Shown in pieces: positions 1 through 7,623 of a stretch of DNA of 7,623 bases. Origin of the DNA: Maritimibacter sp. (GTDB lineage Bacteria > Pseudomonadota > Alphaproteobacteria > Rhodobacterales > Rhodobacteraceae); NCBI GenBank assembly GCA_020441225.1, contig JAGRMP010000224.1, forward strand, positions 8,269-15,891, in the 5' to 3' direction. A program made the position numbers and the translations under genes. The notes below the pieces were generated by a model that saw only the letters and a list, made by a program, of their open reading frames with translations, was not told where the DNA came from and did no database searches. Within the stretch, counting starts at the first letter, position 1, and each line of letters begins with the position of its first letter.

Positions 1-737
1 TGAAGATCGGCTTCGACCCCACCGAAGGGATTATCAAGCTCGAAGTCGTCGCCGCCAGCCCCGAAGCCAGCGCCGCCTTCTCCGAAGCCCTGATCCGGTA
101 CGCCGAGGCGCGGGTCGACAATCTCACCCAGCGGCTGCGCGAAGACCAGATGGCGGGCGCGGTCGCAAGCTATGCCGAGGCCGAAGAGAAACGCGCCGCA
201 GCCCAGGCCGAAGTGCTGCGGCTGCAGACCGATCTGCAGGTCCTCGATCCGACCACGGAGACCGGCTCGGTCATGAGCCAGGTGACCGGTTTCGAAACCC
301 AGCTCAACCAAAAGCGCCTCCAGCTGCAGCAATTGCTCGACAATTCCCGGCCCAACCAGGCCCGGGTCGACGGGGTGCGCGGCGACATCGCGCGGCTTGA
401 GGCGCTGATCGCCGATCTGCGCTCCAAGCTGACCACGACGAGCGGAAGTTCGGGCGAAAGCCTCGCGCAGATCTCTGGCCAGCTCGCGGTCGCGCAATCC
501 GACCTCGAAACCCGCACTCTGCTCATGCAACAGGCGCTGCAGCAGCTCGAAAGCGCGCGGATCGAGGCCAACAAGCAGACGCGATACCTCGAAATGGGCG
601 TTCACCCGGTGGCGCCCGACCAGCCGACCTATCCGCGCAGTTTCGAAAACACGATCCTCGCGTTCCTGATCTTCGCGGGCATCTATCTGATGATCTCGCT
701 GACCGCGTCGATCCTGCGTGAACAGGTGTCGGGATGA
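1..737 (+). CDS. kpsE: Capsule polysaccharide export inner-membrane protein, KpsE/CtrB/BexC family (5' end missing)
   Basis: The frame is open from the left edge (first whole codon at 3) to TGA at 735-737, so about 244 C-terminal residues are visible and the start lies upstream. The visible part is mostly long alpha-helical, heptad-like sequence rich in Ala, Gln, Leu and Glu, a coiled-coil hairpin. A Pro-rich stretch (HPVAPDQPTYPR) and one C-terminal membrane helix (around TILAFLIFAGIYLMISL) follow, ending in SILREQVSG. This order is what the periplasmic coiled coil and second membrane segment of polysaccharide co-polymerase / capsule export proteins look like. In group 2/3-type capsule systems these proteins bridge the inner-membrane ABC transporter (KpsMT) and the outer-membrane exporter (KpsD/Wza). 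The family call comes from architecture and remembered similarity of the C-terminus. The exact symbol is less certain than the family. Confidence 0.85.
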   Translation, partial: KIGFDPTEGIIKLEVVAASPEASAAFSEALIRYAEARVDNLTQRLREDQMAGAVASYAEAEEKRAAAQAEVLRLQTDLQVLDPTTETGSVMSQVTGFETQLNQKRLQLQQLLDNSRPNQARVDGVRGDIARLEALIADLRSKLTTTSGSSGESLAQISGQLAVAQSDLETRTLLMQQALQQLESARIEANKQTRYLEMGVHPVAPDQPTYPRSFENTILAFLIFAGIYLMISLTASILREQVSG

Positions 738-754
738 GACCCGCGCTCCTGCGC

Positions 755-759
755 GAGGG
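755..759 (+). promoter_or_regulatory. Shine-Dalgarno sequence that favours the GTG start at 766
   Basis: GAGGG lies six bases before GTG 766. The alternative in-frame GTG at 718 lies inside the preceding capsule gene and has no comparable purine box, so this site decides the start. Confidence 0.5.
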
Positions 760-765
760 CATGGC

Positions 766-1506
766 GTGAGCCAGGACGGCACCGTCACCCGGCCGCGGCC
801 GTCGGGCGAATACGAGCCCGAATACCTGTTCGAGGGCAAGAAGCTGCGGGTTTCGGTCCGTGGCCCGCGCACGGACAAGCTGATGGTGAGCTTCGACTAC
901 TGGTCGCGGCACAAGCCGGGCTTCGGCCAGATCAACCGCCGCTCGCGCTATGCCGACCGGGGCTTCACCCATCTGCACCTGCATTGCCGGCAGAACGACT
1001 GGTTCCTCAACCGCGAGACCGAGGCGGCGCTCGACGTGATCGCGGCCTATGCGCAGGGGTTCGACAGTGCCGCGTGCATCGGCTTTTCGATGGGCGGCTA
1101 CGGCACCATGCTGGTGAGCCGCGTCGTCGATTTCGACCGGGTGCTGATGGTTTCGCCGCATATCACCTTTTCCGAACATCAATACCCGCACGAGACCCGC
1201 TTTCCCGCCCATATCGGCAATCTCGGACGTGCGCTGAAGCTCAACGAACGGGTCGTTTCCGGTCCGCCGGCACGTGCCGCGGCGGCGGTGATCTACGACA
1301 GCCGAGTCGCGGGCGATCTCTACCACGCCGAGGCTGCGGGCGGCCGGTTCGCCCGTTTCGAACTGGTCGACCTCGCCGGCGGCGGCCACCCCGCGACCAC
1401 CGCGTTGACCCGCGCCGGTCATTTCGAGCTGGTGCTCGACGCGATCACCGGCGAGAGGCTCGACATGGACCCGATCCGCGCCGCCCATGCCCGGGTTGCA
1501 TCATGA
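766..1506 (+). CDS. Alpha/beta-hydrolase-fold protein at the end of the capsule locus
   Basis: The protein has 246 residues if it starts at GTG 766. An upstream GTG at 718 would add 16 residues (total 262) and overlap the capsule gene. The sequence shows a nucleophile elbow, GFSMGGYG at residues 106-113 with Ser108, after the helix-strand pattern expected of the fold. Candidate acid residues are Asp178 or Asp184, and a candidate catalytic His is His208 in the GGGHP motif. There is no signal peptide, so it is probably cytoplasmic. It follows the KpsE-like gene with no real gap, which suggests co-transcription and a role in capsule production, for example as an esterase or acyl/polymer-modifying enzyme. 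That role is inference; substrate and reaction cannot be read from the sequence. It could equally be a non-catalytic relative of the fold. The stop overlaps an ATG (ATGA at 1503-1506). Confidence 0.75.
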   Translation: MSQDGTVTRPRPSGEYEPEYLFEGKKLRVSVRGPRTDKLMVSFDYWSRHKPGFGQINRRSRYADRGFTHLHLHCRQNDWFLNRETEAALDVIAAYAQGFDSAACIGFSMGGYGTMLVSRVVDFDRVLMVSPHITFSEHQYPHETRFPAHIGNLGRALKLNERVVSGPPARAAAAVIYDSRVAGDLYHAEAAGGRFARFELVDLAGGGHPATTALTRAGHFELVLDAITGERLDMDPIRAAHARVAS

Positions 1507-1566
1507 AAACGCTTGCGCCCTAATGGGATTTCCGCCCACCCCGTTGAACTCAAACCGGATCCGACG

Positions 1567-2922
1567 ATGCCTGTTCTACGTGTCTTGAGCCTCGCGCTCA
1601 CCCTGGTGTTCCTCTTCGCCCCGGCCGCGCCGGTCAGCGCCCAGAACGGGACGATCACCACCGTCGAGGGCACGTCGACCGCGACGCGGGCCGAGGCCGA
1701 TGCGGCGATTGCGACGCGCATCCGCGACATCCTGCACGAGCTCGACGGCTACGAGGACGTGACCGTGGTGGTCAAGGCGGGGATCGTCACCCTGCGGGGC
1801 ACCACGCTCGACGCGAGCCTTGTCGACGATCTCGGCGCGCTGGTGAGCCGGGTCGAGGGGGTGGTGGCGATCGAGAACGAGGTGAGCCTGTCGACCTCGG
1901 TCTCGGACCGGCTCACCCCGGTCTGGGACCGGCTTGTCAGGCGCGCGCAGCAGACCGTCGCCTTTCTGCCGCTGATCGCGGTTGCCGCGGTGGCCTTTGC
2001 TGCCGTCACCTGGTTCGGCTTTGCGCTTGCACGCCGTCACCAGCCCTGGGACCGGCTCGCGCCCAATGCCTTCATTGCCGATATCTACCGCAACATAATG
2101 CGCATCCTCGCGGTGATCGCGGGGGTGGTGGTGGCGCTCGACATCCTCGGGGCGACGGCGCTCTTGTCCACCATCATGGGCGCGGCCGGGATCGTCGGGC
2201 TGGCCATCGGTTTCGCCGTCCGCGACACGGTGGAGAATTTCATCGCCTCGATCCTGCTCTCGATCCGCCAGCCGTTCCGCCCCAACGACGCGATCGAGAT
2301 CGAGGGGGTCGAGGGCAAGGTGATCCGCCTCACGTCGCGCGCGACGATCCTGCTCAACTGGGACGGCAACCATGTGCGGATCCCGAATGCGACGGTCTAC
2401 AAGTCGCGGATCCTGAACTACAGCCGCAACCCCGAGCGCCGCTTCAGCTTCGACATCGGGGTCGGCTACGGCACCGACCTGGCCGCCGCCAAGACGCTGG
2501 CGGAGGCGACGGTGGCGGCGCTGCCCTTCCTGCTGAAGACTCCGGCGGTCAATTCCTGGACCACGACGCTGAACGGGTCCGACATCGGCATGACTGTGGT
2601 CGGCTGGATCGACCAGACCGAGACCGACCTGCTCGCGGCCCGGTCCGAGGCAATCCGGCAGGTGCTTCTGGCCTTTGAACAGGCCGGGATCGAGATGCCG
2701 GAACCGACCTACCGGCTGCTCACCGCAGAGACCGGCGCCGCCCCGGCCGCCGCGCCTGCGCCTGCGAAGACGCCGGCTGCCGGTGCCGGTCCGGTGGGGG
2801 ACGGAATCGAGGTGCAGGATGTGGCGGCGACCGCGGAACAGGAGCTCGAGAAGATGGTCAACGAAGAACGTGCGATGACCGAGGAGGACGACCTGCTCAC
2901 CCTGGGCGAGCGTCGTGAGTAG
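1567..2922 (+). CDS. MscS-family mechanosensitive ion channel with N-terminal BON domain
   Basis: The protein has 451 residues from ATG 1567. The frame extends back to a TTG at 1513, but ATG 1567 places a clean signal peptide at the N-terminus (hydrophobic 4-20, likely cleavage after APVSA near residue 25). Next come a BON domain (about 42-108, ending in VEGVVAIENEVSL), membrane helices at about 130-152 and 176-200, and the Gly/Ala-rich pore helix of MscS (about 203-235, AAGIVGLAIGFAVRDTVENF). The MscS beta domain (about 238-285, with RIPNATVYKSRILNYSR) and the alpha/beta C-terminal domain follow. The tail is an Ala/Pro linker (about residues 398-420) and an acidic segment. MscS channels release solutes on hypo-osmotic shock, and BON domains are thought to bind membranes or periplasmic ligands. 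The gene is 60 bp after the hydrolase on the same strand, so it may share its transcript. Confidence 0.9.
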   Translation: MPVLRVLSLALTLVFLFAPAAPVSAQNGTITTVEGTSTATRAEADAAIATRIRDILHELDGYEDVTVVVKAGIVTLRGTTLDASLVDDLGALVSRVEGVVAIENEVSLSTSVSDRLTPVWDRLVRRAQQTVAFLPLIAVAAVAFAAVTWFGFALARRHQPWDRLAPNAFIADIYRNIMRILAVIAGVVVALDILGATALLSTIMGAAGIVGLAIGFAVRDTVENFIASILLSIRQPFRPNDAIEIEGVEGKVIRLTSRATILLNWDGNHVRIPNATVYKSRILNYSRNPERRFSFDIGVGYGTDLAAAKTLAEATVAALPFLLKTPAVNSWTTTLNGSDIGMTVVGWIDQTETDLLAARSEAIRQVLLAFEQAGIEMPEPTYRLLTAETGAAPAAAPAPAKTPAAGAGPVGDGIEVQDVAATAEQELEKMVNEERAMTEEDDLLTLGERRE

Positions 2923-2945
2923 AGCGGAAAAGGGTGTTTTTGGGC

Positions 2946-2974
2946 TTGCGGCGGCCGGAGGCTTTGGCTAGGAA
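2946..2974 (+). promoter_or_regulatory. Possible promoter of tRNA-Gln
   Basis: TTGCGG (2946-2951) and TAGGAA (2969-2974) are separated by 17 bases and would start transcription a few bases before the tRNA at 2987. The -10 match is weak, so this is a candidate from spacing and position only. Confidence 0.25.
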
Positions 2975-2986
2975 AGCGCGCACCGT

Positions 2987-3061
2987 TGGGGTGTAGCCAA
3001 GTGGTAAGGCAGCGGTTTTTGGTACCGTGTACCGTAGGTTCGAATCCTACCACCCCAGCCA
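2987..3061 (+). tRNA. tRNA-Gln (anticodon TTG)
   Basis: A full cloverleaf of 75 bases can be folded by eye. The acceptor stem TGGGGTG (2987-2993) pairs with CACCCCA (3051-3057). The D arm is GCC/GGC (2996-2998 with 3008-3010). The anticodon stem GCGGT/ACCGT (3012-3016 with 3024-3028, one G-T pair) carries loop TTTTGGT with anticodon TTG at 3019-3021, reading CAA. The variable loop is GTACC, and the T arm is GTAGG-TTCGAAT-CCTAC (3034-3050). Discriminator G3058 and an encoded CCA (3059-3061) complete it. An integrase gene reads away from its 3' end, so this gene is probably the attachment site of a genomic island. The copy here appears intact. Confidence 0.97.
3034..3061 (+). other. Probable island attachment site (att) in the tRNA-Gln 3' half
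   Basis: Tyrosine recombinases of islands and prophages commonly use the T arm and 3' end of a tRNA gene as the crossover region. Here the T arm, acceptor 3' strand and CCA sit directly before the integrase-bearing DNA. No second copy of this sequence is present in the window, so the other junction must lie further right. The precise core is not determinable from one junction. Confidence 0.5.
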
Positions 3062-3087
3062 TGTTTCAGAAAAATTGGAACAAAAAC

Positions 3088-3102
3088 AATCGCTTAGCGA
3101 TT
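3088..3102. terminator. Hairpin after tRNA-Gln, possible terminator
   Basis: AATCGC-TTA-GCGATT is a perfect 6-bp stem with a 3-base loop, 27 bases after the tRNA. On the + strand it is followed only by T-TCGCCC, a poor U-tract. On the minus strand it is followed by GTTTTTG, so as an intrinsic terminator it reads better leftward. Confidence 0.35.
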
Positions 3103-3317
3103 TCGCCCTCGCGCGCGCGTGGACGCCGTCTGCGGGAGTTTCGACCCGCACCGGCGCCGACTCCCGACCGGGCCCAGCTCGGCGGCGCGGGGCCCATTCC
3201 AGGTTCGTCCATGGCGAGCGCCATTGCCCCGGTCGGCCCAACCTCCAAGAACGGCGTCGAAAAAAAAGTTTTTCCGGATCCAGAAGGACCAACCCACCTC
3301 CCCGTCAAAATAATGAC

Positions 3318-3321
3318 GAGG
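3318..3321 (+). promoter_or_regulatory. Shine-Dalgarno sequence that favours the integrase start at 3328
   Basis: GAGG lies six bases before ATG 3328. The in-frame ATG at 3313 lacks such a box. Confidence 0.4.
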
Positions 3322-3327
3322 CAGGAA

Positions 3328-5322
3328 ATGCACCAGGTCCCGGAAACCCAGTTCGACCCGAAAGCCGGCGCGATGATCGCGGCAGAAATCATCCGCGGCG
3401 AGATCGCGCGTATGTCCATCGAGGTGGCCGACGACGCCGTCGATATCGACGATCGCATCGACGACCTTTCCGATGCGCTCCGCGAGATCCGGGCCGGGTT
3501 GCGGGCGCGCGACTACGACATGGTGCATCCGTTCCTCGCCGCGGCCTGCGCCCGCCTTGCCGTCCCGGTCCCCACCGAAATCGATGACGAGTATGCACGT
3601 GACCTTCTATCGACGCTGAAGGAACTGACCCGGATCGAGATCGACGTCTTCGAAGACGGCGAGAGCCCGGTCAAGGCGGGCATGAGCCTGCTCCAGCGCT
3701 ATGGGATCCGCATGTCGCAGGGGAAGGTCCCGGCGCTCTTGCACCTGTCTGATGTCGTCGCCGAGGCGGTGAAAGGACAAACGAAGGAAATGCGGCGCAA
3801 GCTCGAAACGACGGCCGAGCTCGTCCAGGAATTTGCCGGCGATATCCCGATCGTGCGTCTGCCCTTCCTGATCGAAGATCTGATGCTCTGGATCAGCCGA
3901 CTCCCCAAGACCCATGGCAAGACGGCCGGCGCCAACGGCCGGGGCGACATGATCGTGGAGCGGGTGCTGAAAGCGGATGAGATCCGGGAGGCCGACGAGA
4001 CCGATGCGAAGGTGTATGCCGAGGCGGCCGCGCGGACAGATCTTTCCGACGCAGCGAAAAAGGCGGCCATCGTCGAGAAGCTCACGAAAAGGGTCACCCA
4101 CACCAACCTCGAGCGGCACCTTGACCGACTGCACCAATTGATGCGTGTCGCCGAAGACCTGGGCTACACCGGCAAGACACGGTTGATCACCTACACGAAG
4201 CTCGCGCAGGTGATGACCGATTTCACGTTGCAGCAACGTGAGACCAATCCGCTGTTCCTGCGTGTCACGCAACCGAAGCTCCGGCTGCGCTGGAACAACC
4301 GGCGCCTCACCACGCTTCTGACGTCGCCCGTCTATCGGGGCTGTTCGACCGACAAGCGACGGGCGAACCCTGGCCGCATGATCTTCCGCGATGCCATCTA
4401 TTGGGTGCCTTTGATCCTGATGACGATGGGCACGCGCGTCACGGAAGTGCTGCAACTCAAGGGTTCGGATCTCATCCTGCGTGACGGCGTCCTTTGCCTC
4501 AGCTTGAACTGGACCGCGGAGCAGGAAGGCAAGACCGTGACGGCGCAACGGATCGTGCCGATCCCGCAAATCCTCCTCGATCTCGGGTTCGTCGAGTGGA
4601 TTCACTCGAAATGCAAGAATCCGAGCGACTTGCTCTTCCCGGAGGTCCACAATGGCGATCCCGACAAAGCCGCGGATATCCTCTCGAAGCGCTTGCTCAC
4701 CGTCCGTCAGCGTCTGGGGATCTACGATTACAACGAAGACCTCTACGCGCTTCGCAAGACCCTTTCATCCGCGCTTTGGCGAGCCGGGGTCCCCCAGGAA
4801 GACAGACAGATGATCATCGGCCATATCTCGGACACGACGATCGGGCGTCATTACACCGACGCAGATATGCAGACGCTCAAGGCTCTTCTCGACCAAGCCG
4901 AACATGGTATCGTGGTCGAGTATTCCGAGAAACACCGGTTCCCGGTGGTTTCGAAGTGCACGTTGTCGTCCGGGGTTCCTGCCCGTGCCGAGGTGCTCCT
5001 CGACGAGCACGGTAACCTGGGTGCCGTTCGGATCATTCGTGAAGACACCGGAGCCCAAATCGTCGCTGCGGCTGTATCGAACTGCGATCTGCCGAAACTG
5101 CCGGACTGGGACGGCATGTTAGTCAAGCGCCGTGCCCTGGTGGCCGAGGCGGTGGCGGACGTGCTCGGGGACTATGACGTCGCGCCGCATTCAAACGAAG
5201 CCGTCCAGCGTGCCTACGAACACCTCCTGGCGCTCGCGGCGAAGACCAGCGATACGCGGGTTTCTGTCGCAAAAACTGATAGTGATGTGGTGGCTCGGCC
5301 ACTGGCTTGCGTGACAGGGTGA
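3328..5322 (+). CDS. Tyrosine recombinase / site-specific integrase of the tRNA-Gln island
   Basis: The protein has 664 residues from ATG 3328. ATG 3313 is a close alternative, and the frame is open further upstream through the tRNA, which is not coding. An N-terminal helical region (1-150) precedes a SAM-like core-binding region (about 155-300, including LPKTHGK). The catalytic domain (about 350-515) follows. Visible active-site positions are Arg370 (GTRVTEVLQLKGSDL), candidate Lys402 (EQEGKT), Arg476 in YALRKT, His499 in IIGH and nucleophile Tyr509 in GRHYTDAD. The usual His of the HxxR box is Tyr473. About 155 residues follow the nucleophile, far more than in typical integrases. Reading away from the tRNA-Gln 3' end, it should catalyse integration and excision of the adjacent DNA. 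The frame is intact. The overall look resembles the large proteobacterial integrases with a DUF6538-like N-terminus, but that sub-family is a guess. Confidence 0.9.
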   Translation: MHQVPETQFDPKAGAMIAAEIIRGEIARMSIEVADDAVDIDDRIDDLSDALREIRAGLRARDYDMVHPFLAAACARLAVPVPTEIDDEYARDLLSTLKELTRIEIDVFEDGESPVKAGMSLLQRYGIRMSQGKVPALLHLSDVVAEAVKGQTKEMRRKLETTAELVQEFAGDIPIVRLPFLIEDLMLWISRLPKTHGKTAGANGRGDMIVERVLKADEIREADETDAKVYAEAAARTDLSDAAKKAAIVEKLTKRVTHTNLERHLDRLHQLMRVAEDLGYTGKTRLITYTKLAQVMTDFTLQQRETNPLFLRVTQPKLRLRWNNRRLTTLLTSPVYRGCSTDKRRANPGRMIFRDAIYWVPLILMTMGTRVTEVLQLKGSDLILRDGVLCLSLNWTAEQEGKTVTAQRIVPIPQILLDLGFVEWIHSKCKNPSDLLFPEVHNGDPDKAADILSKRLLTVRQRLGIYDYNEDLYALRKTLSSALWRAGVPQEDRQMIIGHISDTTIGRHYTDADMQTLKALLDQAEHGIVVEYSEKHRFPVVSKCTLSSGVPARAEVLLDEHGNLGAVRIIREDTGAQIVAAAVSNCDLPKLPDWDGMLVKRRALVAEAVADVLGDYDVAPHSNEAVQRAYEHLLALAAKTSDTRVSVAKTDSDVVARPLACVTG

Positions 5323-5330
5323 AGTAGAAT
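5302..5330 (+). promoter_or_regulatory. Weak promoter candidate at the end of the integrase gene
   Basis: TAGAAT (5325-5330) differs from the -10 consensus at one base, and CTGGCT (5302-5307) sits 17 bases upstream as a poor -35. It could drive the TerB_N gene with a leader of nearly 300 bases. The evidence is slight. Confidence 0.2.
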
Positions 5331-5618
5331 GACGGCAATCCAAAGAGGCCGGGGGTAGCAGTTTCTCGGGCTGAGAAAACACTCCACGTGGTCGGAGATC
5401 GAATTATCTGGCGGACCCATGGGGGTTCGATGTTCCAGACCAGAGGGTCATCTGAATGGATTTCGCCGAATCTTTTGACTTGGATCGTGTCCGGTCGCGT
5501 GCGGCAATGGTTTTCGCCCATGATTCTTCGCGCGATCGCCGTAGACATTTCCTACATCGCATTTCACTCTACCAATGCGAGAACGGGTTCGGGTCTGATC
5601 TGGCGAAAGGGTGTGGCT
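5323..5618. other. Leader between integrase and TerB_N gene with several palindromes
   Basis: No independent gene is convincing here. It holds a hairpin TTTCTC-GGGCT-GAGAAA (5362-5378) without a U-tract, and the perfect palindromes CCACGTGG (5384-5391) and CCCATGGG (5416-5423), which are possible operator or processing elements. The TerB_N frame is open back to TAG at 5325-5327, with in-frame ATG codons at 5430 and 5520. The codons before 5619 lack the G/C-ending preference seen after it, so this part is probably untranslated. Confidence 0.4.
5606..5611 (+). promoter_or_regulatory. Shine-Dalgarno sequence that favours the TerB_N start at 5619
   Basis: AAAGGG lies seven bases before GTG 5619, and the hydrophobic N-terminus begins directly after that codon. 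GTG 5613 is too close to use this box. Confidence 0.4.
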
Positions 5619-7623
5619 GTGAAGTTCCTGCGAGTGGCTTTTTTCTACGTCGTCTACTTCTGCGTCTGCATGATCGTGGTTGTAACGATGTTGGAGAACT
5701 GGCCTGCCGGCATGCAGATGCTGTTTTCGTTCGGCGTCCCGGGCATTCTGGTTTGGGTTCAGGAAAGGCGGCGTGCGGAACTGGCCGCCGCGAAGGTGGC
5801 GCTCCAACAACGGGTGCTTCAGGAAGAACTGGCAAAGGAAAAGCGTGCACGCCTATCGACGGCGGATTCACCGCCGGCAACCGACAGGTCCGCGCGGGTT
5901 GCGGCCGGCCCTTGGGACAACTTGGGGCTGTCACTGGCGGAGATTTCGGCAGCACCGGCCAAGGCGGCGTCGGAGCGAAACCGCGTAGATGAGCGGGGGA
6001 AAGCCCAGGGGAGCGGGGCAGAAACGGCCAAGCCCGCCAATCGAGCAAAGGGGTGGGTGCCCGCGGGCGAGAGCGTCGTCGTTGGCGGACGAAAAATCGG
6101 TGGGATGGTCTACGTCGGAGTTCCGCTGAGATCGGGTTCGCTCGGCTTCAACGGCAAGAGCCGTCCTTTTATCGACCCGTCTCTGCACGTTGCGAAGATC
6201 GGTTCGGACATCGACGGGGCGCACATGCCGTATTGGCCCGGCTATTCGGACATCCCGCCGATGTCGCGTGCCACCTATCTCGATTGGCTGGCCGGTGGGC
6301 GTGCCGACCCGTCCTACGATGTGGGCTACATGTTCCTCTACTTCTATGGGCTTGAGCGCAGGTTCCTGTTCGACAATACGTCCGAGGTTGAACGGCGCCA
6401 GATCCTTGCGGAGGCCATTCGGCTCCGGGATCTCTACCGCGACAACGGATCTGCCAGACGCTATCTCGGCGATTTCATCGAGGTGGCCAAGGTGTCGCTT
6501 GACGACGTGTCGATTCATGAACCGGTCCTCGAAAAGGTCGGCTGGGACGTTCCGCTCTCGATGAAGGTCGCTCTGGGCAGCACGATCGCCAAGGGCGAAG
6601 CATTGACGGCGAACCAGCTGCTTGGCTGGTTCTTGAACCATCCCGAAAGCCGCTTGCGCACGGCTGCCGAGCGATGCGGCGCCGAATTCAGAGCGCTTTT
6701 CCGTATCCGCTTCGATGCAAAGTTCGAAAACGGTTTGTCGGTCACGAGGCCGAGGAAGCTCCTGGAGGAAAGCTACCACGCGGCATCGGGGGAGTTCGAC
6801 GTGGCTCTGACCCCGGAGATCAACGGGGCGCGGGTGCCCGACATCTCCGGCGTGCGAAAACCGATCGAGATCGCGCAGGAGATCGCCGACGAACTGATGG
6901 ACGACCTCGACAAGTTCAGCCGCTACCTCGGACGAACTCCGGAAGGTCGGGGGAGCGTCGAGGCGCATGCCCTGTTACCGCGAGATCTCTGGACACTCTT
7001 TCCGTCGCACGAAATCGACGCCTTGCGGGACTGGGCCCGGGAGCGCTGCGAAACGGGCGGGTTGGTGCCCGTGGTCGATCTGATCGAACGCCTGGAAAAC
7101 GAGACACCGCAGAAACTGGGTGCGCGTCGGTTGACCAATGCGGCCGATGCATTGGCCCGGGTCGGTTTCGGCTTCGCGCCGGATTCCCGGTTTTCACTAC
7201 GGGCGCCGAAGGTGTCCGAACCTGTGGTTCTGTTCGAGCTCGGCGAAGGCGTCGACCGGCTGGAAGACGTGTCGGACGCTTGTCGCTCGGCGCAGATTGA
7301 ACTCGCCCTCGGCGCATATGTCGCGCATGCCGACGGTGATGTCGCCGATGTCGAACGCGAAGCGCTCCATTCACAGCTCCAGAGCCGGCCGAACCTGAGC
7401 GCTATGGAGGCACGGCGTCTGCGCGCCGAACTCGACTGGATGTTGGCGGTGCCGCCCGACATGGCCCTTCTACGCCGCAACCTCAAAAATGTCGGCGCGG
7501 AACAGCAGGTGGCGATCCGGGCAGCGATTTCCGCTGCGGTTCACGCCGACGGCATCGTCCAAGCCGCCGAAGTCGCAGGGGTGGAGAAGCTCTACAAACT
7601 GCTCGATTTCGACCCGGCTCTGG
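5619..7623 (+). CDS. Membrane-anchored TerB_N-TerB domain protein (3' end beyond window)
   Basis: One frame is open to the last base, giving at least 668 residues from GTG 5619 (ATG 5430 or 5520 are alternative starts). Two hydrophobic segments (about residues 4-24 and 31-47) are followed by a charged coiled coil (about 48-80) and a Pro/Ala-rich linker. The TerB_N domain (about 146-290) carries WVPAGESVVVGG, YVGVPL, YWPGYSDI, YLDWLAGG (220-227) and FLYFYGLERR. A family-typical middle region follows (290-550, with DLDKFSRYLGR and ALLPRDLW). An acidic helical TerB region starts near 555 and has AHADGDV (569-575) and VHADGIV (641-647). TerB domains are thought to bind metal through such acidic motifs. 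Ter-type proteins are linked to membrane stress responses, tellurite and phage resistance, and DNA-processing neighbourhoods. A TerB_C domain is expected after the edge. It is the first cargo gene behind the integrase, and its molecular activity is unknown. Confidence 0.88.
   Translation, partial: MKFLRVAFFYVVYFCVCMIVVVTMLENWPAGMQMLFSFGVPGILVWVQERRRAELAAAKVALQQRVLQEELAKEKRARLSTADSPPATDRSARVAAGPWDNLGLSLAEISAAPAKAASERNRVDERGKAQGSGAETAKPANRAKGWVPAGESVVVGGRKIGGMVYVGVPLRSGSLGFNGKSRPFIDPSLHVAKIGSDIDGAHMPYWPGYSDIPPMSRATYLDWLAGGRADPSYDVGYMFLYFYGLERRFLFDNTSEVERRQILAEAIRLRDLYRDNGSARRYLGDFIEVAKVSLDDVSIHEPVLEKVGWDVPLSMKVALGSTIAKGEALTANQLLGWFLNHPESRLRTAAERCGAEFRALFRIRFDAKFENGLSVTRPRKLLEESYHAASGEFDVALTPEINGARVPDISGVRKPIEIAQEIADELMDDLDKFSRYLGRTPEGRGSVEAHALLPRDLWTLFPSHEIDALRDWARERCETGGLVPVVDLIERLENETPQKLGARRLTNAADALARVGFGFAPDSRFSLRAPKVSEPVVLFELGEGVDRLEDVSDACRSAQIELALGAYVAHADGDVADVEREALHSQLQSRPNLSAMEARRLRAELDWMLAVPPDMALLRRNLKNVGAEQQVAIRAAISAAVHADGIVQAAEVAGVEKLYKLLDFDPAL

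Follow-up and report, generated by a model that had tools for sequence, protein, structure and literature searches.

A probable sngA gene of the anti-phage system Shango, with a predicted membrane anchor, behind an integrase at a tRNA-Gln gene

The anti-phage system Shango was reportedly described in E. coli by Millman et al. in 2022. In P. aeruginosa it occurs in cDHS1 as a TerB-like protein, an ATPase and a helicase, and the available portion of that study credits the PA14 operon with 10-100-fold protection against many, not all, phages (PMC10250203). Another copy has been published from plasmid 4 of S. faviae SCSIO W1865, for which the accessible text gives SngA at 1-2544, SngB at 2522-3829 and SngC at 3835-6012 (PMC10221251). 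The record NZ_CP116427.1 has exactly these three genes (1-6012).

Two other kinds of locus share parts with Shango, namely the canonical ter operon, in which TerD/TerC-type genes surround a short TerB, and BREX, whose core consists of brxC, pglX and pglZ around an ATPase and a helicase. A further TerB system, Dionysus, is said to stem from van den Berg et al. (2025). The available section of a review gives reported anti-phage activity for the TerB-containing Dionysus and enters 'Unknown' for the mechanism of Shango (PMC12926258). Dionysus has in common with Shango a TerB anti-phage protein, a likeness known by description only, and its TerB homologue means that TerB proteins occur outside Shango. 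SngC has been placed together with BrxHI, DruE and DpdJ in a clade of immune helicases that is potentially distinct, as stated in the accessible part of the source (PMC12278908).

Here we describe a relative of SngA from Maritimibacter sp. The window, by which we mean the whole stretch of 7,623 nucleotides that was analysed (contig JAGRMP010000224.1, positions 8,269 to 15,891 of the forward strand), contains the following features.

1513..2922, forward strand: BON-MscS mechanosensitive channel gene, chromosomal flank (Pfam; synteny with tRNA-Gln in relatives of the presumed host)
2987..3061, forward strand: tRNA-Gln (TTG), presumed insertion site and left end of the island (ARAGORN, Rfam tRNA)
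3313..5322, forward strand: island tyrosine recombinase/integrase, starting near 3313 or 3328 (PF00589, E 4.5e-12; relatives adjoin tRNA-Gln)
5619..7623, forward strand: probable sngA, 5' 668 codons, laid out as membrane anchor, linker, TerB_N and TerB, with TerB_C expected past the window edge (PADLOC SngA, Pfam TerB_N and TerB, alignment of relatives for the start; 3' end past the window)
5622..5864, forward strand: within sngA, hydrophobic N-terminus (residues about 2-24), then a second, weaker segment and a helical or coiled-coil region (hydropathy, AlphaFold model)
6060..6668, forward strand: TerB_N domain (PF13208; Pfam)
7302..7616, forward strand: TerB domain (PF05099; Pfam)

Left of mscS the window holds the end of a Wzz/GumC-like chain-length protein, with sub-threshold Pfam hits, and then an unnamed frame. 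The sngA frame runs from a GTG at 5619 and is interrupted solely by the window edge. We take this start to be right because the starts of relatives align there and a possible ribosome site, GAAAGGG, lies ahead of it at 5605-5611; most aligned SngA relatives begin at this position or a few residues from it (e.g. MKFLR), P0011 and P0100 being among the few with a later start. When searched against 5027 PADLOC defence models, the frame matched one family at E ≤1, which was SngA (PDLC03958, E 2.4e-50), over profile positions 24-386 of 528, the remainder falling past the edge. TerB_N (E 1.8e-51) and TerB (E 2e-8) both exceed the Pfam gathering score. TerB_C is invisible in the window SngA because the window ends, and the full-length relative P0001, which is 93% identical to the window SngA, has TerB_C (E 1e-20) and matches positions 24-520 of the 528 in the SngA profile. 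We consider it very likely that the window carries sngA, the first gene of the Shango operon sngA-sngB-sngC. The intergenic stretch 5323-5618 before the gene has a GC content of 0.541 vs 0.669 on the mscS side and 0.627 in sngA, and is possibly a promoter or boundary region.

The first 24 residues of the window SngA are strongly hydrophobic, with a 19-residue hydropathy of 2.61 against our membrane-segment cut-off of 1.6, and a second stretch reaches 1.38, which is under the cut-off. In the AlphaFold model, a helix at residues 2-24 is followed by one long helix at 30-82, which fits a membrane segment plus a coiled coil. A sequence-only reading of this DNA had proposed two N-terminal membrane segments with a coiled coil behind them; the first segment and the coiled coil agree with these predictions and the second segment came out weaker than supposed. 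The same reading had correctly placed the start of the frame, its position directly behind an integrase (PF00589) at a tRNA gene, and its TerB_N and TerB domains, both of which were matched in the HMM check.

A hydrophobic segment scoring 1.6 or more in the first 260 residues was found in 76 of 85 SngA loci with mechanical choice of start, locus L034 giving no row in this count. The nine loci without it are L033, L035, L037, L043, L055, L057, L071, L082 and L086, several of which are open at the 5' end or were begun at an internal ATG. Of ten SngA proteins whose starts are annotated, several being closely related to one another, eight have such an N-terminal segment, L123 and L127 being without. 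Proteins with a hydrophobic N-terminus, of varying form, occur among roseobacter-type, enterobacterial, actinobacterial and haloarchaeal SngA. The segment of L124 is more signal-peptide-like, and the haloarchaeal N-terminus (L126, 7629 onward) appears to resemble a TM2-type membrane domain, unlike the proteobacterial anchor. As hydropathy and model predict it, this widely kept N-terminus would provide a simple clue to how Shango works, and our literature search, outside whose scope most subscription papers lay, found no printed statement of Shango being tethered to the membrane.

To see what follows sngA in relatives, we used an alignment-based scan of genome contigs, which gave 130 genome relatives among 143 stretches; a scan with a single protein had found no SngA relatives in these contigs. 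The best 80 of the 130 were examined, with contiguity scored by tblastn at gaps below 200 bases. Where at least 3.4 kb of sequence lay downstream, sngB and sngC were contiguous behind sngA in 69 of 70 loci, and lowering the cut to 3.1 kb, which adds L070, makes this 69 of 71. The sole exception among the 70, L038, has 5.1 kb downstream with a partial SngB and no SngC. The ten shorter loci comprise two that show SngB and SngC cut by the contig end (L042 and L065), five with SngB only (L006, L031, L033, L070 and L074) and three in which the contig runs out at once behind sngA (L011, L034 and L075). In L070, with 3.1 kb downstream, SngB ends at residue 228 with no SngC behind it, and broken Shango operons, as in L038 and L070, thus do occur. 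The SngB stops of these two different bacteria lie nearly alike (L038, 3634-4311, residue 226; L070, 12566-13249, residue 228), possibly through decay, an insertion at a favoured position or a different gene arrangement.

The same order sngA-sngB-sngC was present on eleven plasmids and on one chromosome, from E. coli, picked by hand from the 40 records listed among 678. Ten of the eleven plasmids have annotations for all three genes, and the ATPase of the Methylobacterium plasmid, absent from the gene table, was found by tblastn. One of these plasmid copies, L001, encodes SngB (E 7.6e-176; Pfam BrxC_BrxD) followed by the DEAD/DEAH helicase SngC (E 4.4e-271). The Klebsiella-type operon, over at least 80% of its length, was found in 437 of 5426 complete E. 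coli genomes. A search of viral contigs with the SngA alignment gave one locus, and the same search with P0001 gave none. This distant copy (L086, 1-4576 on a 14.3 kb IMG/VR contig) has a SngA of 24% identity whose 5' end is missing, its next two frames are SngB (E 3.7e-175) and SngC (E 3.9e-246), and it may be carried by a phage or satellite or lie on a host contig that was misfiled. Plasmid copies of Shango have as neighbours annotated SAVED-domain, ThiF and JAB-type genes (CBASS-like), SIR2 plus an ATPase, AbiEi/AbiEii, and pairs of a metallophosphoesterase with an SMC-like or AAA ATPase (L003, 18142-21945; L001 and L002, both sides of sngABC; L004, 17632-22357; L126, 13886-17572).

A FastTree tree of 84 core sequences groups the window SngA with its nearest relatives, P0001 and P0002 (93% and 64% identical), at a support of 1.0. 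This group lies inside a mostly alphaproteobacterial SngA clade of 61 tips (support 0.965) that also holds gammaproteobacterial members such as L054, L065 and L082, and the position of the group within the clade is weakly supported (0.266). Outside the clade, SngA precedes SngB-SngC in Klebsiella, E. coli, Sphingobium, Azospirillum, Mesorhizobium, Methylobacterium, Arthrobacter and the haloarchaeal Natrinema. Whole genomes around G001 gave hits in 13 of 295 of the family with P0001 and in 6 of 385 of the class with P0002, none above 58% identity. Compared with Shango of P. aeruginosa PA14 and E. coli, the window locus is alike in its SngA profile match, its TerB_N-TerB arrangement (with TerB_C in P0001), the first place of sngA in the operons of relatives and the mobile or defence-island setting. 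The roseobacter-type window SngA is about 31% identical over the core to Klebsiella-type SngA, PA14 SngA lying outside this comparison, and the part before TerB_N is about 147 residues long vs 97 in the Klebsiella type. The S. faviae plasmid SngA (NZ_CP116427.1) is 53% identical to the window SngA over 90% of the query and has a similar membrane anchor, whereas its Shango sits on a mobilizable plasmid and the window sngA at a chromosomal tRNA-Gln.

The gene in the window might be an orphan or decayed sngA that has lost sngB and sngC, leaving a locus that is inactive or serves another role. Such a reading draws on the window ending inside the gene, with any partners past its edge, and on L038 and L070 with their partial SngB and missing SngC. 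Since the operon is kept in all but one or two of the relatives with enough downstream sequence, and the 668 codons of the frame are intact and show no alignment gaps in the conserved core, we judge it improbable. The sequence-only reading had instead proposed a possible new module of stand-alone type, that is, a different TerB_N-TerB module with other partner genes. The window, P0001 and P0002 do form a group of their own, whose neighbourhood extends beyond the sequence examined, and TerB is also present in Dionysus (available section of PMC12926258). Both the lineages beside this group within the clade and those outside it precede SngB-SngC, however, and relatives are nearly always followed by ATPase and helicase genes, so that we regard a separate module as very improbable. 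Nor do we give more than the slightest credence to a place in a tellurite or stress (ter) operon, which might be suggested by the TerB domain and by database labels like 'tellurite resistance protein': terZ/A/C/D/E-type Pfam families were matched in none of the five window ORFs, as the reading itself had noted for the canonical terZABCDE genes, terZACDE are listed in none of the 12 annotated neighbourhoods of relatives (plasmid gene tables being incomplete), and the architecture is TerB_N-TerB-TerB_C.

We conclude that the window SngA is a new member of an already described three-gene anti-phage system and that no new system need be invoked. This identity lets the next genes behind the window be predicted, and sngB and sngC would follow in the window's own contig. 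Several earlier guesses fit Shango well, namely a defence function, partners to the right (relatives carry SngB and SngC behind SngA; those of the window lie past its edge) and mobility, given the integrase at tRNA-Gln and the relatives fetched from plasmids or from beside integrases. The two findings that could have overturned that reading, missing HMM matches and housekeeping surroundings, did not appear: TerB_N and TerB were matched, and relatives lie on plasmids or adjoin integrases.

The likeness to BREX concerns the two downstream proteins, as SngB of L001 matches BrxD (E 5.4e-46) and its SngC matches BrxHI (E 4e-112). Unlike BREX, the 12 relative stretches have no annotated PglX, PglZ, BrxA, BrxB or BrxL, and a TerB_N-TerB protein is present instead. 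We considered and rejected membership of the window locus in BREX, whose core genes were not found in the window and are not annotated beside the relatives; the parts alone are alike. Because SngB and SngC resemble BrxD and BrxHI, and SngC sits in the immune helicase clade, the two would form a DNA-directed ATPase-helicase machine. Judging from sequence and model, it is quite conceivable, if somewhat short of probable, that Shango is a membrane-tethered, BREX-like DNA-targeting machine at the site of phage DNA entry. On the simplest reading, we tentatively picture SngA as tethered to the inner membrane through its N-terminal helix, its TerB_N, TerB and TerB_C modules lying in the cytosol, where it might serve as a platform or sensor. 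In that role it would recruit or license SngB, the BrxC/BrxD-like ATPase, and SngC, the BrxHI-like helicase, which would then act on incoming phage DNA. Solved structures matched TerB only (2jxu, E 0.052, and by fold 2h5n, E 0.35), with none for TerB_N, and so offer no clue to the activity of TerB_N. We take 2h5n to be a TerB-like structure.

The island setting is best explained by a Shango copy carried by an integrative element, with its own integrase, at the tRNA-Gln of a Rhodobacterales-like host. In the window the integrase (3313-5322) lies directly downstream of tRNA-Gln (2987-3061), and relatives of it (E ≤1e-60) were found at 11 places in 10 of the 295 genomes sampled from one family, nine at tRNA-Gln(TTG), one at tRNA-Gln(CTG) and one at tRNA-Ser. 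In four of these ten genomes (G001, G065, G104 and G130) a relative of mscS (E ≤1e-90) stands directly before the tRNA. The mscS-tRNA-Gln pair also occurs without this integrase in L106-L111, of which L109 ends 320 bases past the tRNA. No exact repeat of the tRNA 3' end of at least 12 bases was found downstream in the window or in the 7.5-19 kb examined from each of seven related islands (L099-L105), and the far ends may lie beyond these sequences.

Thirty hand-picked long ORFs of the seven islands were searched with PADLOC. Clear defence families came from four islands: L099 has HerA and SIR2, L100 has GajA, GajB and a helicase with partial PDC-S37/Mokosh matches, L101 has the methyltransferase and specificity subunit of a type I system, and L102 has an ATPase whose matches are of NsnB/HEC-03B/AriA type; weak, partial mad3 matches beside a solute-binding protein in L103 are probably transporter ATPases. 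Shango was found in none of the seven. The chosen ORFs of L104 and L105 gave no defence family. Since L105 encodes a heavy-metal P-type ATPase and a SCO1 protein, island cargo need not be defensive in every case. For a rough comparison, 10 ORFs were chosen downstream of the tRNA at four sites that lack the integrase, and none of them had a defence match; because the ORFs were hand-picked, defence enrichment is a lead and no statistic. A literature search found nothing on a tRNA-Gln hotspot, and tRNA-Gln, sometimes behind mscS, may be a hotspot for defence genes on the chromosomes of the presumed host's relatives. The cargo at tRNA-Gln varies, with Shango in the window and SIR2-HerA, Gabija, type I R-M or an OLD-like ATPase elsewhere (four of the seven islands), and the candidate hotspot is served by one family of large tyrosine integrases of about 650-670 aa.
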